Assembly (NCBI RefSeq): GCF_030463535.1
Contig: NC_132892.1
Span: forward strand, 32,653,976 to 32,717,975
Length of the DNA: 64,000 nt
Direction of reading: 5' to 3'
Source: Salminus brasiliensis
Lineage: Eukaryota > Chordata > Actinopteri > Characiformes > Bryconidae
Shown piece after piece: positions 9,272 to 60,500 of this stretch (positions within the stretch are counted from its first letter, which is position 1; every line of letters starts with the position of its first letter). The notes under the pieces were generated by a model. The model saw only the letters and a program-made list of their open reading frames with translations, did not search any database and was not told where the DNA came from. The translations under genes and the position numbers were made by a program.

Positions 9272-9302
<31 letters not shown>

Positions 9303-10625
9303 TCCACACTCACCTGTCTGCAGAGAGAGGCGCTGAGGCCGTTGTAGAGCGCCAGCAGTCCATCATTCTTCACCACATGCATCGCCATGCCAACCATCCT
9401 CATCTTCACCTCCTGCTGCGTCTGCAGGTGCACCTGTAACATCAGCAGCAGCTTTACATTCATCATCATCATCATCATCATCAGCAGCTTTACATTCATC
9501 ATCATCATCATCATTATCAGCTTTACATTCATCATCATCATCAGCAGCAGCAGCAGCTTTACATTAATCATCATCATCATCATCATCATTATCATCAGCT
9601 TTACATTCATCATCATCATCATCAGCAGCAGCAGCTTTACATCCATCATCAGCTTTACATTCATCATCATCATCATCAGCTTTACATTCATCATCATCAT
9701 CAGCAGCAGCAGCAGCTTTACATTCATCATCATCAGCTTTACATTCATCATCATCATCAGCAGCAGCAGCAGCAGCTTTACATTCATCATCATCAGCAGC
9801 AGCAGCTTTACATTCATCATCAGCTTTACATTCATCATCATCATCAGCAGCAGCAGCTTTACATTCATCATCAGCTTTACATTCATCATCATCATCAGCA
9901 GCAGCAGCTTTACATTCATCATCAGCTTTACATTCATCATCATCATCAGCAGCAGCTTTACATTCATCATCATCAGCTTTACATTCATCATCATCATCAG
10001 CAGCAGCTTTACATTCATCATCATCAGCTTTACATTCATCATCATCATCAGCAGCAGCTTTACATTCATCATCATCATCATCAGCAGCAGCAGCAGCTTT
10101 ACATTCATCATCATCATCATCAGCAGCAGCAGCTTTACATTCATCATCATCATCATCAGCAGCAGCAGCAGCTTTACATTCATCATCATCATCATCAGCA
10201 GCAGCAGCTTTACATTCATCATCATCATCATCAGCAGCTTTGCATTCATCATCATGTCATATTTATCTGAATCAAAATCATCAGTCATCATTACGACCAT
10301 CATCATCACTGTCATTAACATGACTATCATCATCATCATCATCATTTTTATCACTGTCATTAATATGACTATCATCATCTTCGTCACGGTCATCTTTAAT
10401 ATGACCATCATCATCTTCTTCATCACTGTCATCAATATGACTGTCATTATCATCAGTCATCTTCATCACTACCATCCTCATCAATGCCTTCCTCACTATT
10501 ACCATAATTATCATCATCACTACTGATCTTCCAGCCCCCCCACAAAAGATCACAGAGAGAGTTACTGGCTCAGTTTCTGCTGAGTAAGAGCTGCTGTTAT
10601 TGTTAGGAGATTAAAGCTTCCTTTT

Positions 10626-25905: not shown

Positions 25906-26556
25906 TCACACATAGGCCTTGTCTGGCTTGTCCTCCGTCGTGGCGGGCTGAGGATTACCCTTCCCAAAACTGGAGACAGTAGGTGTAGCCCCCGAGGAGG
26001 AGGAGCCAACATACATCACAGCCCCACCCACCAGCATCAACAGTGCCATGACCCATCCAAGATAGATCGCAGGGCCTAACTCTCGCTTGAGGGGCGGCGC
26101 CACGCTGGGGTCATAGAAATCTCGGACGACCACGTACGCCGTGGAGGACACGGGGAGGATGAAGACCACAGCGGAAATGACGAAGAGTATGGCGGCAGCC
26201 TTCACCAGCCTATCCTTGGCCTCCTGCTGGCTCCCCAGGCAGCGGGTACACTTGAGGCCGACCACGGCCAACGGCAAGGCCAGCAGGCAGAGGAGGAGGG
26301 ACAGGACGGTCAGGGCGCGGCACAGCTGGGCGAAGGCAGAAAGCGCCAGGCCCGAGTCGTAGACTTTGCACTGGACCTTTCCCCACTGGGACAGGCAGGT
26401 CATCCAGAGCCCCTCCCACAGAACCTCAGACACCACCAGCTCGTCACCCACAAACGCAGACACCCGCCACCAGGGGGTGGCGCACACCAGGGCCCCACCC
26501 GCCCAGCCGATTAACGACAGCAACAGGCCCATCACCTGGAGACCAGTGGTCGCCAT
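25906..26556 (-). CDS. Claudin, single coding exon, 216 aa
   Basis: A four-pass tight-junction protein. Helices lie at about residues 8-28, 78-100, 118-142 and 163-185. The first extracellular loop has the family signature W-GLW-C-C: WEGLWMTC followed by WGKVQC, then CKVYDSGLALS. A short cytoplasmic tail ends KAYV, a PDZ-binding C-terminus for ZO proteins (family knowledge). A single coding exon and this length are normal for claudins. The start MATTGLQVMGLLLS matches the usual MA-GLQ claudin N-terminus. The loop resembles the claudin-3/4/5-like branch, but I cannot place the teleost paralogue, so no symbol is given. 5' non-coding exons may lie in 26560-27060. Confidence 0.95.
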   Translation of the reverse strand: MATTGLQVMGLLLSLIGWAGGALVCATPWWRVSAFVGDELVVSEVLWEGLWMTCLSQWGKVQCKVYDSGLALSAFAQLCRALTVLSLLLCLLALPLAVVGLKCTRCLGSQQEAKDRLVKAAAILFVISAVVFILPVSSTAYVVVRDFYDPSVAPPLKRELGPAIYLGWVMALLMLVGGAVMYVGSSSSGATPTVSSFGKGNPQPATTEDKPDKAYV

Positions 26557-29130: not shown

Positions 29131-29567
29131 TATATTACATGTCCAAAAGTTTGTGGACACCCCTTCTAATGAATATATTCAGCTGCTTTAAGTTGCAATC
29201 ATTGCTGCTGACACAGATGTGCAAATGCACAAACACACACATAGCTTGTCCAGTCTCTGTAGAGAAGTACTGCCAATACAATAGGACGGCAGTCTCTGCA
29301 CCATGCTGCTGCCTAATGCCAGGCGTGAGCTAGTAGAGGGGTATAAAGCCCCCCAGCATTGAGGAGCTGTGGAGCAGTGGAAGAACTGTTTTCTCTTGAA
29401 TGATGGATGGTGGTGGAGCACCAGCACAGTTGGGGATGATGAGGTGGGGTGGGTTCTCCAAAATCTAATAGAAGGCCTGAAAGTCTTCTTCTCTGGACAG
29501 TAGAGACAGCCTTGATTTCAGAAGAAGCAATGAATGAGCAGGTGTCCCAATACTTTTGTCCACAGGA
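29131..29567 (-). mobile_element. MITE, TGGACAAAAGTATTGGGAC family, full-length inverted copy
   Basis: The most complete copy, about 435 bp: CATGTCCAAAAGTTTGTGGA, GCACAAACACACACATAGC, AGTACTGCCAATACAATAGG, TATAAAGCCCCCCAGCATTG, CTTCTCTGGACAGTAGAGAC, and AGCAGGTGTCCCAATACTTT. It is a usable reference for the family in this window. Confidence 0.75.
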
Positions 29568-29852: not shown

Positions 29853-32317
29853 ACGATTGGAGCTTGGAAGTCCAGAGGGATGATCAGTTATTCAGTTATT
29901 AATGAAATAATACATTAATGGAATGGAATGGAATTCTGAGTGGCTGCCTCCCAGACAACAGAAAGTGAAAGCCACTTTGACATTTACTGTAAACGCTTCA
30001 GCTTACTCTAAACCGAAAGGTCTAGTAAAAAAGCTCAGACTCTCAAAAGCAGATAACATCAGGAACTGCTGTTTCATTACCAATAAAGCCACGTTTTATG
30101 ATTTCAGTATCTACACACCGCCTATTACTAATATGATCTCCACTTTCTCCACTTCTTTTGAATAAAAATGGGAAATATTGGTACTATATGACAGCAATGG
30201 ACAGCCAGATAGATCCCTGAATCTTATACCTACCCAATATACAAATTCTGGGCTGAGAGCAACCCCACCTGGGTTATCTGGCAACCAGATTGATGGGTAA
30301 ATATTGGAGAAAATCAAGTCAAGTCAAGTCAGATTCATTTGTAGAGCTTTTTACAACTGTTGTCGTCATAAAGCAGTTTTACATAATTAGTAATTAGTAA
30401 AGACAGAAAAAAATAAATAACGTAAGACATGAAGGATCAAAGACCCCCAGTGAGCAGACCCCAGCGCTGACAGTGGCAAGGAGAACCTCCCTCAGAGCTG
30501 GAGGAAGAAACCTTGGGAGGAACCAAGACTCACAAGGGGGACCCGACCCGTCCTCCTCTGATCAGAACTATTTATTAATTATTAATAAAAATGACCAAAC
30601 CATCTAAACTGTTGAACTGCTCTGATCATAATCATAATATACTAATCATATAATAGTGGTTAATATTAATAATTAATATAGGATAATTATTAGATTCAGC
30701 TGATCTACAATATTGATAATATATATACAGTATATATATATATATATATATACAGTATATATATATATATATATAATACAGCATAGTTGCACAGCTAAAC
30801 TGCAGAATTGTGGTTAATAGTGTCTTTTTTGCTAGATGGTTGCTATGGTGTTGCTACGTGGATGCAATGGTTTTCCAGTAGTTGCTATGTATCTGCTAGT
30901 TGGTTTGCGATGGTGTTCCAGTTAGATGCTATAGTGCTGCTGAATGGTATGTAGGTGGTTGCTATGGTGTTGCCATGTTGGTGCAATGGTTTTCCAGTGG
31001 GGTTCAACTAGTGTGGGGTCAATTAGTGGCTACAAGGGTTTATGTAGGCAGTTGCTATGGTAACCCAGGCTACAAAATGGTTGCTAGTTGATGGCTACAG
31101 TGTTACCTAGTGCTTGCTTGATGAGTGCTGTACTAGGGTTAGGGTTAGGGTTATATGATCATATTGTTATTTCAGATGGTTTCTATAGGGTGGGTTGCTA
31201 GGTAGTTCCTAGGCAGTTGCTATCGTGTTACAAAGGGGTTGCTGTTTCAGAAATGATGGTAAATGGGACTAAATCAGCCAACCTTGTAAGCAGTCAGAGC
31301 ATATTGAAAACAGACGATTAAAGCCATGTTTTTATATTTATAATTATACTTATATAGTATTTGTTGTTTATTTTTATATATTCCTCATCTCTATATAGTT
31401 TATTTATTGTGTTTTTTATGTCCATATTCTAATCTGAATCAGCTTTCTTACTGCTTATATTATAATTCATCTTAGTGCAGGTATTAACCTAAAATAAAAA
31501 AAAAAAAATAAAAATAAAATATATATATATCATATAACGTCTATATCAATAACATTTAGATCAATTTCTTAAAACCATTAAAAGGTTCTTCATCTCTTCT
31601 ACAAAGGATTTTAGTTAGCTGACTCATCTGCATGCAGAGGTAACGGTCTTGTTTTTTGAGGTGAAGGAGAGTAGTTTCACTTTTGGTTTTTAATGTAGGC
31701 CAACAAACCAGGGGGCTGGATCACTGGACTTCACCACTGAGGGTCTGTAGAGTTCTATAACACCCCGCACCATCAACCTTTTTCAGTGTACTCTCACGCA
31801 CTGAGCTGTACCCACTGCTCTACCAACCCACATTCGCCATCAGCAGCTGCTACAGGTAGGTACTGCCCTCTGAGACGAGATCAGGATAGAAGCTTTGTGT
31901 TCAATGTAGATAATTAGTGGAATTAGTACAAATAAAAGAACCTTTGTTATGGATGTAATACATTATCGTTTTGTTGACAAGATTTAATTTGACTTTGAAG
32001 AAAGACGAAGGGTAAGGAGTCTACCCTTATTCAATTTTAGAAATAAGAACTGTTTTTAGATATTACAATAAATGGGGCTAAATCAACCAACCCTGGAAGC
32101 AATCAGAGCATGTTGAAAACTGCAGATCAAAGGAAATTATTTATGTTCTTATGTATTAAATATATATATAAAATACATAAGAAAGTGAATCATTTTCATG
32201 ATTTTCATTTTCAATCATAAAGCAGATTAAAGGAAATCATTTTCTTATGTATTAATACTTCTATATGAAGTATTTATTATTTACTTTTATATATTTTTTA
32301 TCTCTATATGTTGTAAG

Positions 32318-32967
32318 TGTCAGCCCTGCGGCGCCGCGCCCCCCTCAGGGGCGGCTTCGGGCTGTGGTCCACAGGCTCCTTGGGACTTTTCAGTGGATGT
32401 TGGGTTGATTTCAGTGTTCATGTACTTTCTGTTCCTCCTGTTGGTTTTCTCACTAAGGACTTTTATGTTGACTGCGGTCTAAGTAAGACGCCATGCTTTC
32501 TGTGTATCTCTGTATTATATTATATTATATTATATATATATATATTATATTAGTTTCACCTGAGTGCTGGAGTACAAAGGGAGCAAACGCAGATGCCTCG
32601 GCGCCGAGAATTACTCTTGCGATGCCGAGCTGTGAGGTTGCTCCCTAGTCCAGTAAGTTCATCAGCGCCTGACGAGCGCAGTTTTGGGGTGAGGCTTTGT
32701 TTGTTAGTTTCTTTGGTTCCTTTGTGTTCCAGTCTTCCTCCCCCCCCGTTTGATTTGTCCCCTCTTGCTTTGCTCCCGGACTACTTCCCAGCCTCAGGTG
32801 GTCTTCCAGGTTAAGCCCCATTTCAGTTTTCTGTTTCTGTTTATTGGACCCTGTACTTTGCTGCCTCGTTTTGTTTGTTTGTTTGTTTTGTTTGGTCATT
32901 AAAGACTGTTCCCCTGCATTGCTCTGTCCCTGCGAGTGTCCCCTTGTCTCGCCTAGCCAGCATGACA
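32318..32967 (+). mobile_element. Solo-LTR-like insert, 650 bp, copy 1 only
   Basis: Starts TGTCAGCCCTG and ends GCATGACA, giving the TGTCA/TGACA inverted termini of an LTR. ATTAAA lies at about 32900 and a T/G-rich tract precedes the end. No gag or pol is present. Flanks (GTAAG and ATATT) do not form a target duplication. Instead a block of about 250 bp (AATGGGGCTAAATCAACC to ATCTCTATATG) is present on both sides, at 32060-32310 and 32968-33215. Absent from copy 2. Confidence 0.65.
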
Positions 32968-34250
32968 ATATTACAATAAATGGGGCTAAATCAACCAACC
33001 CTGGAAGCAATCAGAGCATGTTGAAAACTGCAGATCAAAGGAAATTATTTATATATATATATAATACATAAGAAAGTGAATCATTTTCATGACTTTCATT
33101 TTCAATCATAAAGCAGATTAAAGGAAATCATTTTCTTATGTATTAATACTTCTATATGAACTATTTCTTATTTACTTTTATATATTTTTTATCTCTATAT
33201 GTTTAATTGTGTTAAATTAGATGTTTTAGCTGATAATATCCTAATCTGAATCAGAATGCTTCATGTTATATAAGGCACCGAATTCAACTCGGTGCAGATA
33301 TTAACGTAAAATTAAAAACAAAAAAGTATATATATATATATATTCAACTTTGACCATAAACAGTTTTTACTGACTGAGATATGATTTCAGTTTAACATCG
33401 ACTGTAGTACTGTAGTTCTGTAGGTACACAGTATGTACTCATGATAAAAATATACATTACTAATAAATATGTTTATTGCAACAGGCTGACCACAGTAGAG
33501 GAAGGTGGGAGGGGGCAGTGTTGGCAACTCCTCAATAAGGAAAGTAGCTGTTGGCTGTCCTAGAAGTCGCTAAATGATGTCATCGCCTAATTTGCATAAT
33601 TAGGAATAACGTTGTGGGAGAGAAAAGAGTAAAAACACCCTAAATATGTTAGAACCTTGTATCTCCATTTTCGCTGTTATTCAGAAACGCTCCAAAATGA
33701 CATTGACTTCCATTGAAAGTTAATTAGGTTTTTTAATAAACCTTCTCCTGTAAAGTTGGGCTGGGTTTGGTATCTATCAGAGCTTATAAACTGTAAAGCT
33801 TGCCTTGCTCACACCATCCCTGTCAAAGCCTGACCATTTCAGATAGCTTTAACGGCCAGGGACAGCCAGCAAGTCCAGGCTTCCATTCCTGACTCCCACA
33901 ACTCAATACCTTCAGCCCTTGCTCGAGAAAAAATGGTTTCTGACGGCTGTGGTCTGCAAGGCCTAATGGAGCCGGCGGGCTCTGCTGGGAATTGACCGGG
34001 GGGTGTTTAAAACAGCCGATGTTAAACTGAAGTCATATCTCAGTCACTCAGTTGTTCCAGCTACCTAGATAGAGCTGCTGCTGGTCTGAGCTGAGCTTAC
34101 TAGAGCTGTCCAGACAGTTTCTGGACATGAATTCCCCACTTCTAGACTAATGTCCACTCCTGGATTCTTCACGATCTGGAAATTCCTGGACTGCTCATGG
34201 TATTCAGTATTGAGTCCTTCTATAACAGAATCTGTTCCTCCACAGAGAAC

Positions 34251-34550
34251 ATGGACTTCTTCAAAACAGTCGGTGCTGTGGCGGCAGGTTTCGTCGGGGG
34301 TACTGTAGGTGTGGCGAAAGCCGTGGTAGACACCACAGTGAACATCGGCAAAGGAGTCCTGGAGGGAGTGGAGGGCGGAATTGCCGACATGGAGAACGCC
34401 AACTCCAGTGAGGAAACGATGGAGGCAATTGTAGATGTGATAACAAAGCCAGTGGCTGGAGGCTTTGTGGCGGGGTGCAAAGGCCTTATCAAGACTCCAG
34501 GGAAAATTGTGAATGGAGTTAAGGATGGCGTTGATGCAGTGCTTGATTAA
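34251..34550 (+). CDS. Small Gly/Ala/Val-rich protein, 99 aa (duplicate 1)
   Basis: MDFFKTVGAVAAGFVGG at the N-terminus, AVLD at the C-terminus. The start AACATGG is a good initiation context and follows a plausible acceptor (CCTCCACAG at 34237-34245), so an untranslated first exon may exist upstream; the frame is also open 18 codons further up from 34197. ATTAAA at 34602 may be the polyadenylation signal. Two halves look related: VAAGFVGGTVGVAK (10-23) and VAGGFVAGCKGLIK (68-81), each followed by a G-V/I-rich amphipathic stretch, with an acidic linker (ADMENANSSEETME) between. No signal peptide or cysteine pattern. The segment ITKPVAGG...KGLIKTPG recalls the repetitive amphipathic C-terminal part of VPS13-type lipid-transfer proteins and, more loosely, synuclein-like repeats; that is inference. 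Function unknown. The 187-codon antisense frame is a shadow. Confidence 0.65.
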   Translation: MDFFKTVGAVAAGFVGGTVGVAKAVVDTTVNIGKGVLEGVEGGIADMENANSSEETMEAIVDVITKPVAGGFVAGCKGLIKTPGKIVNGVKDGVDAVLD

Positions 34551-34820
34551 ATGAACTGTGCATCCAGATGTTTGAGGTCTTCTTTTGTCACTGACTGGCT
34601 TATTAAAGAAAATGGGTTGGGTAAACAAACTGTCGTAAATGTCATCATTTGTATCCCGATTACGCTGCTAGCCATCAGAGGGCGCAATTGGCCTTGCTTT
34701 CTCTAGGGTGGGTAGATGGTGACCCCCCCACATCACTCTAGTGCGGCGCCAGTGCGTCAGAGCCAGGTATACGGCATGTAAAGGTGTGTTGGTTGGTTGC
34801 CTGGTGACGTTGCAGTTGGA

Positions 34821-35689
34821 ACGATTGGAGCTTGGAAGTCCAGAGGGATGATCAGTTATTCAGTTATTAATGAAATAATACATTAATGGAATGGAATGGA
34901 ATTCTGAGTGGCTGCCTCCCAGACAACAGAAAGTGAAACTAAGCCACTTTGACATTTACTGTAAACGCTTCTCGAAAGCAGATAACATCAGGAACTGCTG
35001 TTTCATTACCAATAAAGCCACGTTTTATGATTTCAGTATCTACACACCGCCTATTACTAATATGATCTCCACTTTCTCCACTTCTTTTGAATAAAAATGG
35101 GAAATATTGGTACTATATGACAGCAATGGACAGCCAGATAGATCCCTGAATCTTATACCTACCCAATATACAAATTCTGGGCTGAGAGCAACCCCACCTG
35201 GGTTATCTGGCAACCAGATTGATGGGTAAATATTGGAGAAAATCAAGTCAAGTCAAGTCAGATTCATTTGTAGAGCTTTTTACTACTGTTGTCGTCATAA
35301 AGCAGTTTTACATAATTAGTAATTAGTAAAGACAGAAAAAAATAAATAACGTAAGACATGAAGGATCAAAGACCCCCAGTGAGCAGACCCCAGCGCTGAC
35401 AGTGGCAAGGAGAACCTCCCTCAGAGCTGGAGGAAGAAACCTTGGGAGGAACCAAGACTCACAAGGGGGACCCGACCCGTCCTCCTCTGATCAGAACTAT
35501 TTATTAATTATTGATAAAAAAAGTTACCAAACCATCTAAACTGTTGAACTGCTCTGATCATAATCATAATATACTAATCATATAATAGTGGTTAATATTA
35601 ATAATTAATATAGGATAATTATTAGATTCAGCTGATCTACAATATTGATAATATATATACAGTATATATATATATATAAATATATACAG

Positions 35690-35720
<31 letters not shown>

Positions 35721-38700
35721 CAGCATAGTTGCACAGCTAAACTGCAGAATTGTGGTTAATAGTGTCTTTTTTGCTAGATGGTTGCTATGGTGTTGCTACG
35801 TGGATGCAATGGTTTTCCAGTAGTTGCTATGTATCTGCTAGTTGGTTTGCGATGGTGTTCCAGTTAGATGCTATAGTGCTGCTGAATGGTATGTAGGTGG
35901 TTGCTATGGTGTTGCCATGTTGGTGCAATGGTTTTCCAGTGGGGTTCAACTAGTGTGGGGTCAATTAGTGGCTACAAGGGTTTATGTAGGCAGTTGCTAT
36001 GGTAACCCAGGCTACAAAATGGTTGCTAGTTGATGGCTACAGTGTTACCTAGTGCTTGCTTGATGAGTGCTGTACTAGGGTTAGGGTTAGGGTTATATGA
36101 TAGCTGTTATATGATCATATTGTTATTTCAGATGGTTTCTATAGGGTGGGTTGCTAGGTAGTTCCTAGGCAGTTGCTATCGTGTTACAAAGGGGTTGCTG
36201 TTTCAGAAATGATGGTAAATGGGACTAAATCAGCCAACCTTGTAAGCAGTCAGAGCATATTGAAAACAGACGATTAAAGCCATGTTTTTATATTTATAAT
36301 TATACTTATATAGTATTTGTTGTTTATTTTTATATATTCCTCATCTCTATATAGTTTATTTATTGTGTTTTTTATGTCCATATTCTAATCTGAATCAGCT
36401 TTCTTAATGCTTATATTATAATTCATCTTAGTGCAGGTATTAACCTAAAAAAATAAAAAAAATAAAAAGAAAAAAATATATATATCATATAACATCTATA
36501 TCAATAACATTTAGATCAATTTCTTAAAACCATTAAAAGGTTCTTCATCTCTTCTACAAAGGATTTTAGTTAGCTGACTCATCTGCATGCAGAGGTAACG
36601 GCCTTGTTTTTTGAGGTGAAGGAGAGTAGTTTCACTTTTGGTTTTTAATGTAGGCCAACAAACCAGGGGGCTGGATCACTGGACTTCACCACTGAGGGTC
36701 TGTAGAGTTCTATAACACCCCGCACCATCAACCTTTTTCAGTGTACTCTCACGCACTGAGCTGTACCCACTGCTCTACCAACCCACATTCGCCATCAGCA
36801 GCTGCTACAGGTAGGTACTGCCCTCTGAGACGAGATCAGGATAGAAGCTTTGTGTTCAATGTAGATAATTAGTGGAATTAGTACAAATAAAAGAACCTTT
36901 GTTATGGATGTAATACATTATCGTTTTGTTGACAAGATTTTATTTGACTTTGAAGAAAGACGAAGGGTAAGGAGTCTACCCTTATTCAATTTTAGAAATA
37001 AGAACTGTTTTTAGATATTACAATAAATGAGGCTAAATCAACCAACCCTGGAAGCAATCAGAGCATGTTGAAAACTGCAGATCAAAGGAAATTATTTATG
37101 TTCTTATGTATTTTATATTTATATATATATATAATACATAAGAAAGTGAATCATTTTCATGATTTGCATTTTCAATCATAAAGCAGATTAAAGGAAATCA
37201 TTTTCTTATGTATTAATACTTCTATATGTTTTATATTATTTCTTATTTACTTTTATATATTTTTTATCTCTATATGTTGTATTAAATTAGTTTTTTTAGC
37301 TGGTAATATCCTAATCTGAATCAGAATGCTTCATGTTATATAAGGCACCGAATTCAACTCGGTGCAGATATTAACGTAAAATTAAAAACAAAAAAGTATA
37401 TATATATATATATTCAACTTTGACCATAAACAGTTTTTACTGACTGAGATATAATTTCAGTTTAACATCGACTGTAGTACTGTAGTTCTGTAGGTACACA
37501 GTATGTACTCATGATAAAAATATACATTATTAATAAATATGTTTATTGCAACAGGCTGACCACAGTAGAGGAAGGTGGGAGGGGGCAGTGTTGCCAACTC
37601 CTCAATAAGGAAAGTAGCTGTTGGCTGTCCTAGAAGTCGCTAAATGATGTCATCGCCTAATTTGCATAATTAGGAATAACGTTGTGGGAGAGAAAAGAGT
37701 AAAAACACCCTAAATATGTTAGAACCTTGTATCTCCATTTTCGCTGTTATTAATTTTTCTCCATAATATGAATCTGGCAGAATTTCATGATGACCAATAG
37801 AAACGCTCCAAAATGACATTGACTTCCATTGAAAGTTAATTAGGTTTTTTAATAAACCTTCTCCTGTAAAGTTGGGCTGGGTTTGGTATCTATCAGAGCT
37901 TATAAACTGTAAAGCTTGCCTTGCTCACACCATCCCTGACAAAGCCTGACCATTTCAGATAGCTTTAACGGCCAGGGACAGCCAGCAAGTCCAGGCTTCC
38001 ATTCCTGACTCCCACAACTCAATACCTTCAGCCCTTGCTCGAGAAAAAATGGTTTCTGACGGCTGTGGTCTGCAAGGCCTTAATGGAGCCGACGGGCTCT
38101 GCTGGGAATTGACCGGGGGGTGTTTAAAACAGCCGATGTTGCTGGTCTGAGCTGAGCTTACTAGAGCTGTCCAGACAGTTTCTGGACATGAATTCCCCAC
38201 TTCTAGACTAATGTCCACTCCTGGATTCTTCACGATCTGGAAATTCCTGGACTGCTCATGGTATTCAGTATTGAGTCCTTCTATAACAGAATCTGTTCCT
38301 CCACAGCAAACATGGACTTCTTCAAAGCAGTCGGTGCTGTGGCGGCAGGTTTCGTCGGGGGTACTGTAGGTGTGGCGAAAGCCGTGGTAGACACCACAGT
38401 GAACATCGGCAAAGGAGTCCTGGAGGGAGTGGAGGGCGGAATTGCCGACATGGAGAACGCCAACTCCAGTGAGGAAACGATGGAGGCAATTGTAGATGTG
38501 ATAACAAAGCCAGTGGCTGGAGGCTTTGTGGCGGGGTGCAAAGGCCTTATCAAGACTCCAGGGAAAATTGTGAATGGAGTTAAGGATGGCGTTGATGCAG
38601 TGCTTGATTAAATGAACTGTGCATCCAGATGTTTGAGGTCTTCTTTTGTCACTGACTGGCTTATTAAAGAAAATGGGTTGGGTAAACAAACTGTCGTAAA

Positions 38701-38881
38701 TGTCATCATTTGTATCCCGATTACGCTGCTAGCCATCAGAGGGCGCAATTGGCCTTGCTTTCTCTAGGGTGGGTAGATGGTGACCCCCCCACATCGCTCT
38801 AGTGCGGCGCCAGTGCGTCAGAGCCAGGTATACGGCATGTAAAGGTGTGTTGATTGGTTGCCTGGTGACGTTGCAGTTGGA
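34821..38881 (+). repeat. Tandem segmental duplication, copy 2 (4,061 bp)
   Basis: Same start and end as copy 1. It lacks the LTR-like insert and one of the two flanking blocks (about 905 bp), and lacks about 56 bp just upstream of the 99-aa gene (present in copy 1 at about 34022-34078). It carries about 45 extra bp of the ACCTTGTATCTCC MITE at about 37752-37800. Beyond 38881 the two sequences differ, so the breakpoint lies inside a dispersed repeat. Confidence 0.95.
38312..38611 (+). CDS. Small Gly/Ala/Val-rich protein, 99 aa (duplicate 2)
   Basis: Identical to the copy at 34251-34550 except for residue 6 (Ala for Thr, AAA ACA to AAA GCA). The bases just after the putative acceptor also differ (AGAAC against CAAAC before ATG). 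Stop, 3' flank and ATTAAA signal are the same. The coding block is better preserved than the flanks, which contain several indels. Its upstream 56 bp are missing relative to copy 1, so the two copies may differ in promoter or first exon. Same comments on possible amphipathic/lipid-binding character; function unknown. Confidence 0.65.
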   Translation: MDFFKAVGAVAAGFVGGTVGVAKAVVDTTVNIGKGVLEGVEGGIADMENANSSEETMEAIVDVITKPVAGGFVAGCKGLIKTPGKIVNGVKDGVDAVLD

Positions 38882-38995
38882 AAAAGAGGCGTGGCTGGCT
38901 GTGCATGTGTCAGAGTGGGCGTATGTGATTGGGGGAGGGGAAATTCGTATAGACTGGGTAATTGGCGATCTAAATTGGGAAGAAAACGGGTAAAA
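38690..38995. repeat. Dispersed fish repeat at the duplication breakpoint
   Basis: GCTAGCCATCAGAGGGCGC, GGGTGGGTAGATGGTGACCC, AAAAAGAGGCGTGGCTGG, ACTGGGTAATTGGCGATC and AATTGGGAAGAAAACGGG form a block order that I recognise as a common interspersed fish repeat. Copy 1 holds only its first part (34630-34820); copy 2 continues into the full element. Class not determined. Confidence 0.5.
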
Positions 38996-39670: not shown

Positions 39671-40760
39671 TTATTGATCTTTTTCAGTTATGTTATCATA
39701 AATCATCTTTGCTCCTGCTCCCACTGCAACTGCAGCACCAGCAGCCACCACTGAAGCTGACAGGAGGATTGCAGTCTCTGTAGCAAGCACCACACCTGCA
39801 GCCACAGCTCCTGCCCCACCCACGGCCATTCCTGCTCCCAGGGCAATGTCTTTGGCCACTTTCATGATCTGAATACTTCTCTGGACCTTCTGAAACATCT
39901 CATTAGTATAGTGCTTCCCTTTGTTCCTCTTCACCACTGCGTCAATCTTCTCCAGCAGCTCTGTGACCTGAGCACGGTTCCCAGTGTCCTCATTGCTGAG
40001 TCCATGGTATCTGCCCCCGCAGCTGTCGATGCACTGCAGAAGATTGACGCTTTCGCTGACATACTCCTCCAAAGGTTTCCCCTTCAGCTGGTCAGTGCAG
40101 GTGAACAGAACGATGGTGTAGAGCGAGGCTTCCTTTCCAAAGTTCTCCTGAATCCACTTCACAGCGTTTTGCTCCTCAGGTGTGAATCTCCCTGGTCTGA
40201 TCACCAGCAGGAACACATGGGGGCCAGGAAGCGACCTGCGGATGCAGTCTTTTATTTGGAAGCTTGTTTTATTTTTGGGCTTTCCTTCTTGGTTTTTGGG
40301 GAGTCGTGGAGTTCCGAAAATCCCGGGTGTGTCTATCACTGTAATCTTCCTACCTCCAAGGCCCTGACTCGCTTTTCTGCACTTGTCTGTGACCGCTGAG
40401 GATGAAAACTCCGATTTGAATACATTTGTACCCAGGATGGTGTTTCCAGTGGCACTCTTCCCAGCACCGGTTTTACCCAGAAGAACAATTCTCAGCTCAG
40501 ACTCTGTACATCAACAAATATCCAAAGAAAAGGCAACAGTTTATTCCTGGTTCTTCATGGAAGCAAAAGTGGTTCTGCTGATGTAGCACCACCTGCAGTA
40601 CTGGAGTGCTCAAATGAACATCACATTACTGTACATAAATGATTGCAGTTTTTTAAAATAAAGAAATATAGTATCATACTCACTGGATGAGGCTTTTTGT
40701 TTGTCGGGGAAATGCAAGCAACCTGAAACGAAAGCATTTTTATATTTACTATACAGCATT

Positions 40761-40825
<65 letters not shown>

Positions 40826-43800
40826 GTGGGGGCCTGTAATTGACATCATAGGTAGACCGCAACTATGAGAGACAAAATGAGAAAAAAAATCTGAAAATCG
40901 CATTGTCTGATTTTTAAATAATTTATTTGCAAATAATGGTGGAAAATAAGTATTTGGTCACCTACAAACAAGCAAGATTTCTGGCTGTCACAGACCTGTA
41001 ACTTCTTCTTTAAGAGGCATCTCTGTCCTCTACTCATTACCTGTATGATTTTATTTATTTATATTAATGGCACCTGTTTGAACTGGTTAACAGTATAAAA
41101 GACACCTGCCCACAACCTCAAACAGTCACACTCCAAACTCCACTATGGTGAAGACCAAATAGCTGTCGAAGGACACCAGAAACAGAACTGTAGACCTGCA
41201 CCAGGCTGGGAAGACTGAATCTGCAATAGGCAGCAGCTTGGTGTGAAGAAATCTACTGTGGGAGCAATAATCAGAAAATGGGAGACCTACAGGACCACTG
41301 CTAATCTCCCTCAATCAGGGGCTCCACGCAAGATCTCAGCCTGTGGGGCCAAAATGATCACAAGAACAGTGAGCAAAAATCCCAGAACCACACGGGGGGA
41401 CCTAGTGAATGACCTGCAGAAAGCTGGGACCAACGTTACAAAGACTACCGTCAGTAACACACTACGCCGCCAGGGACTCGGATCTTGCAGTGCCAGACGT
41501 GTTCCCCTGCTTAAGCCTGTACATATCCGGCTCGTCTGAAGTTTGCTAGAGAGCATTTGGATGTTCCGGAAAAGTATTGGGAGAATGTCTTATGGTCAGA
41601 TGAAACCAAAGTAGAACAACAACTCGTATACCCGTACACCATACCAACTGTGAAGCATGGGGGTGGCAACATCATGCTTTGGGGCTGTTTCTCTGCAAAG
41701 GGACTAGGACGACTGGTCTGTGTACATGTATTGTGAGATTTTGAGTGCAAACCTCTTTCCATCAGCAAGGGCATTGAAGATAAAACGTGGCTGGGTCTTT
41801 CAGCATAACAATGATCCCAAGCACACTGCCAGGGCAACAAAGGAGTGGCTTCGTAAGAAGCATTTCAAGGTCCTGGAGTGGCCAAGCCAGTCTCCAGATC
41901 TCAACCCCATAGAAAACCATTGGGGGGTTGAAAGTACGTGTTGCCCGCCGACAGCCCCAAAACATCACTGCTCTAGAGGAGATCTGCATGGAGGAATGGG
42001 CCAACATACCAGCAACGGTGTGTGCCAACCTTGTGAAGACTTACAGAAAACGTTTGACCTCTGTCATTGCCAATAAAGGATATATAACAAAGTATTGAGA
42101 TGAACTTTTGTTATTGACCAAATACTTATTTTCCACCATTATTTGCAAATAAATTGTTTAAAAATCAGACAATGTGATTTTCTGAATTTTTTTTTCTCAT
42201 TTTGTCTCTCATAGTTGAGGTCTACCTATGATGTCAATTACAGCCTCTCTCATCTTTTTAAGTGGGAGAACTTGCACAATTGGTGACTAACTGTATGCTT
42301 GCTTTTTTACTTGGGGTCATCTTTAGCTTGTAAGGTAGGCTGGTTTTAAATATACTTCTAACTAGATTCTGCTAACACTCTTGTCTTAAGGTTAACATAG
42401 AAGCTTGGTGCTCACTAGTTGATTGAGGTGCTGATTCAGGTGTAGTTTCAGGCCAGCTAGAAGTGTGAATTGCAGAGGAGGAGCCAAGTGCCTCCAATCT
42501 TGATAAATTAGGTGTGGAGCCACTCAGAAATCAGTGTGCTTGCTTTTTTACTTGGGGTCATCTTTAGCTTGTAAGGTAGGCTGGTTTTAAATATACTTCT
42601 AACTAGATTCTGCTAACACTCTTGTCTTAAGGTTAACATAGAAGCTTGGTGCTCACTAGTTGATTGAGGTGCTGATTCAGGTGTAGTTTCAGGCCAGCTA
42701 GAAGTGTGAATTGCAGAGGAGGAGCCAAGTGCCTCCAATCTTGATAAATTAGGTGTGGAGCCACTCAGAAATCAGTGTGCTTGCTTTTTTACTTGGGGTC
42801 AAAGTGGTGGAACGAGCTGCCCCTGGATGTCCGAACGGCCGAGTCGCTCGCTGTCTTCAAACGCAGACTGAAGACCCACCTCTTCAGAGAGTACTTGGAC
42901 GAATAGTTCTATGGTCGCCTTATTGTCTTGTGTTTAGCAATGTCTAAGCTTGGAGGTATCTTTTGTATTAGTCTATTCTAACTAGCTGAGGTTTTCTTGG
43001 GTAAATAGCAAAGCACTTTGTAAGTCGCTCTGGATAAGAGCGTCTGCTAAATGCCGTAAATGTAAATGTAACTAAATACTTTTTTCCCCACTGTATATAT
43101 ATATAAATATTTGTATCATCCTTACTTTATTTATCTCTTTTTAAATTGATATTTATAAGATTGTCGGTAAATGAAGAAACTGCAAAAAAATAATTTCTTT
43201 GAAATTTCTTTCTGAAATGAAAAATGTCGGAAAATGAAGGAACTGCAAAGTAAGAAGTAAGAAGTACAGTGTAACTCCTGAATCTTGATTATTGAATTTT
43301 AAAAAATAACTTGCTTTAGAAGACATTTGGTGTAGAATAGAACAAGCAAGGCAAATTTGTTGATATGCAATACTACTCTATCTTACACCCCACCAACGGT
43401 GTATTTTCATGCCTTTCGCCTGTTGTTTAAATAGCGAATATATCTACACCCATGGGTGCGATGGTCTCAAAATGAGGGGTGTTCAGGTCAGTTTTTGGCG
43501 TATTGCTGTGTATCTCTGCATTGGAAGACACAGGAGGAGCTCCACAGACTAAAAACAGCCTAGGCAGATGTTCGTCAACAGTCAGACATTCGTTCGTTGC
43601 TATCTTGGCAGTGAATTGTCAACACAAGAGACACACTGATTGGTTTATTACAGCACATTACACCTAAAAAAACACACCCGTGATTAATTAATAGAGCTGA
43701 GCAAGGGGCACTTTTCCTGTTGTTGTGCTACTGAAGACACACCGACACGCCTTAAATCAAGCCCTGGTTGATGGCTCGCCAAAAGATTGTTAAAATAGGG

Positions 43801-46727: not shown

Positions 46728-48701
46728 ATGGCTGCAGTTGGTGAGTAAGGAAGGGCTGTGACAAATCAACTTCCTAAATCAGCTGATCTGGACATTTCTG
46801 AGTTTGATCTTGAGGGGAAACTGTTCAATCATGAAACGATCAAGCAATCAATCTACATTTCTACTGTAATACTAAAATATTACAGTATTTGATGGTGAGC
46901 TATATTGGAGAATCCGCCTGAGAATCTCAGATAAGTGATTATGTAATGTCATTTTTAACAAATTTAGCATAACAATAAACAGCAACATGTTCAAATGCCC
47001 ATCAGTAATACAGTAAACCACACGTCAGCCCTGAATCCTTCTGCAACTGGTCAGAAGGTTTACAGAGAAGAATGCAGTGGGGCTCACATAGGTGGAATGT
47101 AGGCAAGGTGGGTTCCAGGTGGGCCTGGAGGCTCTGAGTGGGTTTGTACATACGTTTTTACTGGGACCCAGTTGATCTTCCAAAATTGGGCCCCATTTGT
47201 CAGCCCACTTTCTCCATGTCTCATATGGTTCCCATCTAGGCACCAGTGTGCAGTGCACAACCCAGATAGGGCCCATGTTTAACCTCTCCTGGTCCAATCA
47301 CTGACCCTGATGGGCATCCACATATGGGGCCAACGTAGAAGTGAGTGGAAATGAGTGGAAATGATGAGCCAGTTAATTATCTAAAAAAAGCATAAAAATA
47401 AACAGCAAAAAGTTCAAATGCCCAGAAATGCTACACCTGAGTAATACAGGAAACCACACCTCCAGCCCTTAGTCCTTCTCACCGGTTCTGCAACTTGTCA
47501 GAAGGTTTAGAGAGAAGAATGCAGTCTGGCTAGACGGGACTCACAGCTTCAGAGAGTGAGATTTTTGGATTTTTAAAAATGTAGAATTAGAACAGTTGGA
47601 GAGCCATGATGGAATGGTTTCACCCATTCCAGTGTAACTAAGCTGATTTGAAGGTGGTCTTTGTTTTAACGTGCAGGTTCCGATCTGCGGATGGTGCTGC
47701 TGGGAAAGACTGGATCAGGAAAGAGTGCAGCAGGAAACACCATCCTGGGAAGACAGGAATTCAGAGTAGACGTATCATCTATGTCTGTGACCAGGATCTG
47801 TGAGAAATGTGAGGGAACAGTGGGCGGCAGGAAGATCTCGGTGGTGGACACTCCAGGCCTCCTTCACACATCACTGCCAGAAGATCAGCTGAGAGCTGAA
47901 ATAGAGCAAAGTGTGTATCTGTCTGCTCCCGGCCCTCATGTGTTCCTGCTGGTGATCAGACTGGGAGTCAGGTACACCGATGAGGAGCAGGACGCTGTGT
48001 ATTGGATTCAGAAGAACTTTGGAGAAGCAGCCTTAAAACACACTGTCGTACTCTTCACTCATGCAGACATGCTAAGGGCAGCATCAGTGGAGCAGTATGT
48101 GGAAGATGATGAGCTGCTGAAACAGCTTGTTGAAGATTGTGAGGGCAGATATCATCTCTTTGATAATGAAGACGTGGAGAACCGCTGTCAAGTCTTGGAG
48201 CTTCTGGAGAAGGCGGATGCTTTATCCAGCACATATTACACCAGTGAGATGTACCAGGCAATTCAGAAGAAGCTGGAAGAAGAAGAAGAAAAGAGGAAGC
48301 TTAAAGAGGAGGAGGAGGAGGAGGAAAGTCTAAAGAGGTGGGAGGAGCTGAGAGAGGCAGTCATTAGATTAAAGTATAAGGTAAAGAGAGAGCTGAGGAA
48401 GATCAGGTATAAAAGGATAATAAGGGACATAATGAGAAATGAAGAGAGAGAAGAGAAGCTCACAGCAGGTCTTTTTGGAACTCTTATAAATGCAACAAAA
48501 ATAGCCTTCAGAGAAGCCGAATTTGCCAAAACATTTGGAGTTGGGTTTGTTGTGGGATGTGTTTTAGGACTAGTGGAAGTTACGACTGGAATTCGGTTAT
48601 TATCCGCAATTACACCTACTGTTGCATTTGTTCTAGGAGCAGGAATAGGCTTCGCTAGTGTTCCGATCAGGCTTTACAAAAGGAGACTTAGAGGGCATTA
48701 A
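46728..48701 (+). CDS. GIMAP-B: AIG1-type GTPase with charged coil and hydrophobic tail, 345 aa
   Basis: Exon 1 46728-46740 (ATG GCT GCA GTT G, then GTGAGT), exon 2 47677-48701 after GTGCAG; phase 1, 1,038 nt in frame. P-loop GKTGSGKS (14-21), AAGNTILGR, switch VVDTPGLL (61-68), [19 protein letters not shown]4 FTHADML (131-137), RYHLFDNED, then EMYQAIQKK. Residues about 200-266 are a strongly charged Glu/Lys/Arg stretch (EEEEEEE, KYKVKRELRKIRYKR) likely to form a coiled coil. Residues 291-335 are hydrophobic (FGVGFVVGCVLGLVEV; TPTVAFVLGAGIGFAS) and could be a membrane hairpin, ending in basic RLYKRRLRGH. The start at 47691 inside exon 2 would drop only nine residues, but the upstream mini-exon matches its neighbours. 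It belongs to the GIMAP immune GTPases; exact orthology is not resolvable here. Confidence 0.93.
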
Positions 48702-57565: not shown

Positions 57566-60500
57566 TCACTCAGTTTTTCTCTTTCTAAATCTATCATAGA
57601 TCAGCTTTGCCCCCGTTCCCACAGCAAGTGCTCCTCCGGCTATAACTCCGGCCACAGGCAGCATTACAGCTCCTGTGATCCCAAAAACCACCCCTCCTGC
57701 CACCATTCCCCCGAGGCCTATTGCTGTTCCTGTTCCCAGGACAACCTCTTTTATCACTTCTACTTGTTTTCTTCTCTGATTTTTAAGGATCTCCTCCTGC
57801 GCTTTTAGAAACATCTCATTAGTGTAGTGCTGTCCACCGTTCCTCCCCACCATTGCGTTGATTTTCTCCAGCAGCTCTGCGATCTGACTGTGGTTCCTCG
57901 TTTCCTGGTTGTTAAAGGCATGATACCTTTCCTCACAGCTCTGAATCAGCTGGTGAAGAGCTTCACTTTCGTTGATAAACACATCCAAAGGTTTGGACCC
58001 CAGCTGATCAGCGTGGGTGAAGAGAACAAGGGTGTAACGTGCAGCATCTTCTCCAAAGTTCTCCTGAATCCACTTCACAGCATTTATCTCCTCTGCTGTG
58101 AACCTCACAGCAAGACTGATCACCAGCAGGAAGGCGTGAGGACCCGGGACGGACATGTAGACGCACTGATTTATCTGTTCTTCTATTGTTTGGCTGTTTA
58201 ATGATCCAAAGATTCCTGGTGTATCAATGACGTGGATTCTCCTGCCTACATTTTCGGCAAGACCGCTTTTGCATGTCTGCGTAACTGCAGCAGGTGACCG
58301 TTCGGCTAGAAAGACCCCTCGTCCCAGGATGGTGTTTCCAGTGGCACTCTTTCCTGCTCCAGTTTTACCCACCAGGACAATCCTCAGCTCAGACTCTGTG
58401 AACCGAGAAACATCTTATTCATCATTTTCTAACAGGAGTTTATTAGTTTGGCTCTTGGATCACTTTGTGACATTTTTGTGACACTTTCGGCCCAAGGCAT
58501 ACTCAAATTATGTGGCCACTTAGGGGGCTCCGAAGAACAGCAAAATATCATGATAAAATATACATATTTTAAAAAAACAGCGGTATTACTCAGGTAAAAT
58601 TATTAAATTTATTTTCATAGTTGGCGCACTGATACTAGGTTTATCAATTCCAGCTGTTGGCTCTAAGAAAATTTAGGCCTTAGGCCTTCCTCTTTGCTAG
58701 CCCAGGGAGAAAGGGGATTGTGCAATATGCAGAGGTGGTCGGAGTTAGGGAACCTGACGATTATAGGTGCCGTCCTCATACTTTTGCACATCTGTTAAAA
58801 ATAAAAAAACTGATGAACTTGTTTACTATAGATGTAGTGTGTTGTCTGCTGATGTTACTGAGCACTTCTACACCTCTCTGTATTTAAAAGTGAAAATTAT
58901 TAATTAAATTAATACATTTTTTAAACTTGCTCCTCCTGTAAGGCTAAAAACTATAGCCAGAATGGTGCCAGTATGACAATAATAAGCTAATTACAAATAA
59001 TGCTAATGATAGTGGGTACGTTACACACACACACAGTGCAGCCTATGGAATGATGAAGCATCTGGTGCTGAGGTGGTGGTATGGGGTGCTTAGGGCCCCA
59101 TAACAACTTGGGCCAGCCCATATTTATCTACTTATATTTGCACACAAACAAAAAATCGTAATCTCAACCAAAATCTCAACTCACCAGAAGAGGGAGCCAC
59201 GACGTCTCTGCCCATATAGTCAAGCAAAGGAACTGCAGTAAGAGTTAATAAACAAGTATAAGGTTATCTCAGTAATTCTGGGTAATCAAACACTATCACA
59301 TAATCATTTCAAGCCCCAGTCAGTGAACATATGATGACCCTTGTCTATAATTTTCAGAATTTGACACTCTAAAAAATAATGGTGCTACAAAAGGTTCTTT
59401 AAACTGCCATAGAAGAACTATTCTGGGTTCCATAAAGACTCATTTTTGTAACAGCACGTCTTTATGGAGCCAAAAGTGGCTCTTCTATGGTCTCACTCAT
59501 AGAACAATTTGTAGCCCTTTACAGTGTACGGTGGCATACAAAAGTTTGGGCACCCCTGTTAAATATCTCTTGAGTAAAAGATGAATTTCATGCCAAAAGA
59601 ACAATCAATCCTTGAAGATCCAAAAAAGAGAAGTCACTGAAAATACTGCACTGGATCCAAGACACTGTGAGGATCCAAAAAAGTGAAGTCACTGAAGACA
59701 CTGCACAGTAGAACAGTGCACCTCCTCTCCAGAGTTTGCTAATAAAAATTGAAGTTTTGCTTTGCTTTTCTGGCAATTCTATGAGCAGATCTCTCTGAAT
59801 GTTTCTTGGTCTTCCAGACCTCAACTTGACCTCCAACGTTCCTGTTAACTACCATTTCTTAATTGCATTGCAAACTGGGGAAACGGCTCTTAAAAATGCC
59901 TCTGGTAGTCTTCTCCTGCTTTGTAGCTATTATTTATGGCTAAGCAGCTGCCTATTTGTTGCTGCTGCCACACTACTGTTGCAATCCTTTACATATGACT
60001 TTACCGTCATGCTATTTGCACAACACCACTAATGTTACAGATTCACCTATTTATATCTACCGCTATATGTCTATATTTGTTTATGTATATCTTTTCTTTT
60101 TAATGATGCATATAGTCCTTAACTTACTTCTTAAGTAAGAATTTCTGCCTGTTTACTGCTCACATGACAATACAACTCTCGATGAGCCCACAGATGCCAA
60201 TTGTGGGAACAGGGTTTAAAGAAAAGAGTTGCCTGCCTTTTGTAAGGATAAACATGAACGTCTACCAAAGTAGGAGTCATCTAAAAGCGTAAATTTCTCA
60301 AAATGCCCAATACTCCTCAAATTTTTTCACTCTGAAATTGCACAAAACAATAATAATACACTAAGCTTGCTTAAAATGTAAAAAAAAATGATGTCGGTTT
60401 GAGATCAGTTGATCTTTTACTCACTTAAAGACAACAGAAATTGTGACCAGGTTGTCCAAACTTTTGCATGTCACTGTAACTGAATAGCCAGTGTCACAAA

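Follow-up and report, generated by a model that had tools for sequence, protein, structure and literature searches.

Amphipathic helices have been described at the ends of VPS13 and ATG2 (PMC7613979). Two further systems come close to the locus analyzed here, namely the small ISG12/IFI6/IFI27 proteins (PF06140) and the GIMAP GTPases (AIG1 domain, PF04548). We examined a 64,000-nucleotide stretch of Salminus brasiliensis DNA, hereafter the window, in which a first-pass annotation had pointed to two nearly identical 99-codon open reading frames next to a GIMAP cluster. Both are present on the forward strand as candidate coding exons of 99 codons plus stop, ORF A at 34251–34550 and ORF B at 38312–38611, and their products differ by a single residue, T6A. 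The chances are about even, in our judgment, that they represent a small teleost gene, lineage-restricted or fast-evolving and tandemly doubled, that would encode a membrane-folding cytosolic hairpin, possibly with an immune role.

We searched for relatives of the 99-aa protein in several libraries. At E values up to 10, Pfam returned only DUF5610 (E 0.2) and MccV (8.4), both below the family cut-offs and neither of them a synuclein or perilipin model, the presence of those two models in the library being unconfirmed. NCBIfam gave no match, and nothing significant was found among PDB sequences, where only filamin-C appeared (E 0.29 and 0.45). These results support the view, put forward in the first-pass annotation, that the protein would belong to no recognized family within Pfam, NCBIfam and PDB sequences. 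With copy A as query, the PHROGs returned four tape-measure families (E 0.0085 to 0.29) and one unknown family (0.83); we read the tape-measure and filamin-C matches, without a control, as shared composition. Six eight-residue patterns, which can detect close relatives only, hit 11 stretches in viral and 77 in prokaryotic contigs, and tblastn on these found no relative. In the fish's own genome (1,066,335,885 bases, 103 contigs), only copies A and B, both in the window, were recovered at E up to 10, a count of 2 that is a lower bound, with two candidates scored. Given two matches in a 1.07-Gb genome rather than the many copies of a transposable element, again with counts as lower bounds, the product is not a high-copy transposon protein. 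Of the papers listed for fish GIMAPs and interferon or for VPS13, we recognized none as an account of this protein, which is not a claim that it is absent from print.

Under the first alternative, the gene is an ordinary one whose product has already been recorded in other fish, under the label of an uncharacterized protein. We regard this as somewhat probable; it is compatible with our preferred reading, so that the two sets of odds are not exclusive. The scope of the searches, which comprised prokaryotes, viruses, PDB chains and the fish's own genome, could itself account for the orphan status. To our knowledge, Pfam also lacks many fish-specific families.

Self-BLAST and alignment show that each ORF lies near the end of one 4–5 kb unit, and that the two units, to which no strand is assigned, follow each other head to tail (unit A at 29853–34821, unit B at 34822–38882). 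This tandem duplication had no place in the first-pass account. Units A and B differ by 39 substitutions over 3979 aligned positions (0.98%) and by 12 gap events, in line with the flanking indels reported earlier. The largest gap, 885 bp missing from B, falls where A carries a repeated stretch; gaps of 1, 46 and 56 bp lie within about 600 bp upstream of the ORF, the 885-bp gap being further up, and the 271 bp 3′ of the ORF align gap-free. It had also been proposed that the coding block was under constraint or had undergone recent conversion, a proposal that the counts do not bear out: there is 1 substitution in the 300 bases of the ORF and 38 in the remaining 3679 bases of the unit, and at the outside rate the probability of 1 or fewer is 0.18, which gives no sign that conservation is higher in the ORF than around it. 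We therefore dropped constraint as deduced from the divergence between A and B, a comparison without power. Separately, about 650 bp of unit A (32316–32967) are missing in unit B and are flanked by two copies of a ~250-bp stretch (32060–32320 and 32968–33210, by self-BLAST), an arrangement that resembles an insertion whose flank has been duplicated. A further stretch, read by eye, is common to both units (33560–33640 and 37640–37720) and presumably resembles a dispersed fish repeat.

Could the second copy be an assembly artefact, with two alleles placed in tandem? The divergence of about 1% and the indels between A and B would fit, as haplotypes of outbred fish may likewise differ by about 1% with indels, and the exact head-to-tail junction seen by self-BLAST fits a true duplication and an artefact equally. 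The assembly, however, is one of long contigs (103 in all, the window's own spanning 36.9 Mb), and we consider this explanation unlikely.

To assess coding potential, a codon model was trained on 1042 codons from the claudin and the three GIMAP ORFs of the window. The ORF frame reaches a log-odds score of +25.1 bits, and none of the remaining five frames rises above −29.1, the lowest standing at −86.1. Among 2332 other 297-nt stretches, taken every 50 bases on both strands in one frame each with the training and ORF stretches left out, a single one, in a low-complexity repeat near 9701, scores as high. The first codon position is G in 59 of the 99 codons. A score of this kind also mirrors amino-acid make-up, and GIMAPs, whose tails are rich in Gly, Ala and Val, supply three of the four ORFs used for training, so that we take it as support and not as proof. 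Two antisense frames over the ORF are also free of stops; the antisense ORFs that span the copies (187 and 244 aa) were considered and set aside, since all three antisense frames score −29 or lower. The low-complexity repeat at 9299–10526 opens long ORFs on both strands, and by eye the end of the minus-strand ORF there resembles a mitochondrial carrier exon.

The flanks of the ORFs allow a candidate gene model to be drawn. By eye, the start ATG lies in a good context, and a 3′ splice-site-like sequence ending in CAG stands 5 nt ahead of it in each copy (34230–34245 in A, 38291–38306 in B, both +), a putative acceptor. In a motif scan, ATTAAA, a signal of the poly(A) type, turned up some 50 nt beyond each stop (34602–34607 and 38663–38668, both +). 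A scan for donor sites matching at least 8 of 9 consensus places gave a single candidate per unit, at 31856 in A (within 29853–34240) and at 36811 in B (within 34822–38300). This single strong donor per unit suggests a non-coding first exon, at 31786–31855 (+) in A, where it ends CAG|GTAGGT, and at 36741–36810 (+) in B. The start of both exons is a guess. It was placed about 30 bp downstream of a TATA-like CTATAAC noticed by eye, where a strict scan for TATAAA[AT] found nothing. Splicing probably joins two exons in each copy, with an intron that would measure 2390 nt in A and 1496 nt in B, and an exon may also lie outside the duplication unit. At present, the locus is an orphan exon with a candidate gene model.

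The ORF probably codes for protein, and the gene is probably real, given that this is the one frame in which its codons match the usage of the window's genes and that sequences resembling a splice acceptor and a poly(A) signal lie on either side. The opposite reading, a chance ORF within a duplicated non-coding stretch, draws on the fact that A and B are too alike for selection to show, and that no homologue beyond the duplication appeared in the prokaryotic and viral pattern scans or in the fish's own genome. Since no homologue was found among the sequences searched, purifying selection is unproven. Against a chance origin stand the codon score, the poly(A)-type and splice-like context and the amphipathic design described below, which together make it improbable.

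The protein is rich in glycine and valine (17 G and 18 V of 99 residues), as first noted, and the description of two similar halves also holds: their local alignment scores 48, against a mean of 25.9 for shuffled sequences (p = 0.0016, 5000 shuffles), with half boundaries that were picked after the sequence had been read. The statement that cysteines are absent has to be corrected, C76 being present in both copies. The hydrophobic moment of each half, at 98.2 as well as at 100 degrees, is higher than that of shuffled sequences (p 0.0075 or less). Over the whole protein, none of 2000 shuffles reaches the moment at 100 degrees, and the value at 98.2 degrees is not significant (p 0.069). Small-xxx-small triplets number 6 against 1.4 expected (p 0.0046), and the longest run of them is not significant against shuffles (p 0.11). 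The hydropathy maximum, with every third start sampled, is 1.60 over 19 residues. This value lies at the threshold customary for transmembrane segments, and a helix that spans the membrane is possible.

AlphaFold2, run on the single sequence without an alignment, predicts helices at residues 2–48, 53–80 and 82–98, with a break at the acidic linker that had been described between the halves. The best of five models has a pLDDT of 70.0 and a pTM of 0.43, and the other four average from 66.8 down to 43.7. The model and the hydrophobic moments lend support to two amphipathic halves, predicted to be helical, with an acidic linker. A Foldseek search of the PDB, with E values up to 10 admitted, gave 227 matches, of which the best has E 0.82 and none reaches 0.001; among the 50 of these 227 that were listed are hairpins of the ATP synthase c-subunit and of the TIM23 complex, all weak. 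Composition, periodicity and a middling structural model, rather than homology, make it most likely that the product is small, binds membranes peripherally and consists of two helical halves, both amphipathic.

These features raise the question of whether the protein is a relative of the C-terminal amphipathic helices of VPS13 and ATG2, perhaps a detached fragment, as its ITKPVAGG..GLIKTP stretch, compared by eye here as in the first-pass annotation, would suggest. We take a TKP-type turn to be common to the 99-aa protein and to those helices. The published account of amphipathic ends in these proteins (PMC7613979) agrees with such a kinship. Pfam and the PDB sequences, however, gave no match to the VPS13/ATG2 C-terminal region, a weak test in that PF09333 lay outside one of the Pfam sets used, and we find such a relationship doubtful at best.

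A diverged ISG12/IFI6-IFI27-like interferon-induced protein is very improbable in our estimate. Size and Gly/Ala-rich make-up are similar, and against the three exons of this genome that pass the PF06140 cut-off, all on other contigs, the best pairwise BLASTP E is 0.029 (three-sequence database, composition correction off). Of three shuffle tests, however, a single one reaches p 0.028, the others standing at 0.21 and 0.80; phmmer E values are 0.12 to 0.24, and the 99-aa protein itself has no PF06140 match at E up to 10. A parallel comparison with the C-terminal 110 residues of each of the three GIMAPs of the window gave shuffle p values of 0.54, 0.07 and 0.11, with a best pairwise BLASTP E of 0.046 (three-sequence database, without composition correction). 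With shuffle p values from 0.028 to 0.80 in six comparisons, neither ISG12 proteins nor GIMAP tails are convincing relatives, and we attribute the likeness to shared composition.

The GIMAP cluster adjoining the pair is real. Pfam identifies AIG1 exons at 39674–40339 (−; PF04548, E 1.9e-35), 47691–48698 and 57569–58372, as had been recognized from the first, and a claudin at 25909–26556; the ORFs at 29534 and 56378 have no Pfam match. By eye, the AIG1 frame at 39674–40520 (−) continues upstream beyond the start of the ORF as listed and takes in a P-loop-like GKTGAGKS; within the 10 kb downstream of the window, a further pair of AIG1-like ORFs, of 446 and 229 residues between stops, can likewise be made out by eye. 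Pieces of a Tc1-type transposase occur as separate ORFs at 41243–42073 (+, Pfam). A UnaL2 LINE 3′ element lies at 43007–43060 (+; RF00436, 67.8 bits), the one element found by Rfam, and ARAGORN found no tRNA in the window. A functional link between the GIMAPs and the 99-aa protein is suggested by position.

An ISRE-like AAAAGTGAAACT with one mismatch lies upstream of candidate exon 1 in each copy, at 31673–31684 (−) in A and 36628–36639 (−) in B, the latter being a duplicate of the former and not independent of it. Such one-mismatch sites number 11 in the window where 6.5 would be expected, which is no significant excess, as 9 of 100 shuffles reach that number. The ISRE core GAAANNGAAA is above chance there (8 against 3.4 expected, reached in 1 of 100 shuffles), some of the 8 cores being duplicates of one another. 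The cores at the unit starts (29961 and 34929) were not used as evidence, as the full site is present once in the window and in 12 of 100 shuffles. With ISRE-like matches near chance and units that are not independent, interferon control is something we infer, and the 99-aa protein is perhaps interferon-inducible.

On our preferred reading, a 4–5 kb tandem duplication would have produced two gene copies, each probably made up of a short exon that is non-coding and a second that carries the coding sequence. Their product would be a hairpin in which the acidic linker joins two α-helical halves, both amphipathic and spaced with glycines, and is most likely a cytosolic protein that folds onto a membrane surface with its helices within one leaflet, the small-xxx-small faces allowing the helices to pack with each other or with those of other copies. 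Its role there might be that of an adaptor at the membrane or a disturber of it, in an immune setting suggested by the neighbourhood. A bolder proposal, of an undescribed fish family of interferon-inducible membrane-binding amphipathic hairpins that work with GIMAP GTPases at intracellular membranes and expand by tandem duplication, is a long shot. Should the gene be real and under the control of interferon, the lineage-specific immune genes of fish would include one more small effector that acts on membranes, and GIMAP clusters would have a candidate partner.

Set against the described systems, the protein shares computed amphipathic helical segments with the C-terminus of VPS13 and ATG2, for which they are reported in PMC7613979. 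It differs in having no match to them in Pfam or PDB sequences and no lipid-transfer groove of the kind that lies N-terminal to those helices, its 99 residues being predicted as all helical. As amphipathic ends are what that source describes, we use the comparison for how the protein might work, not for membership. Like the ISG12 proteins, it is small, hydrophobic and rich in glycine and alanine, but it has an acidic linker and lysines and does not match their profile. Unlike the GIMAPs, in which all three neighbours match PF04548, it has no match to the AIG1 GTPase domain, and yet it resembles their C-terminal hydrophobic tail in its Gly/Ala/Val-rich make-up and is encoded beside them.
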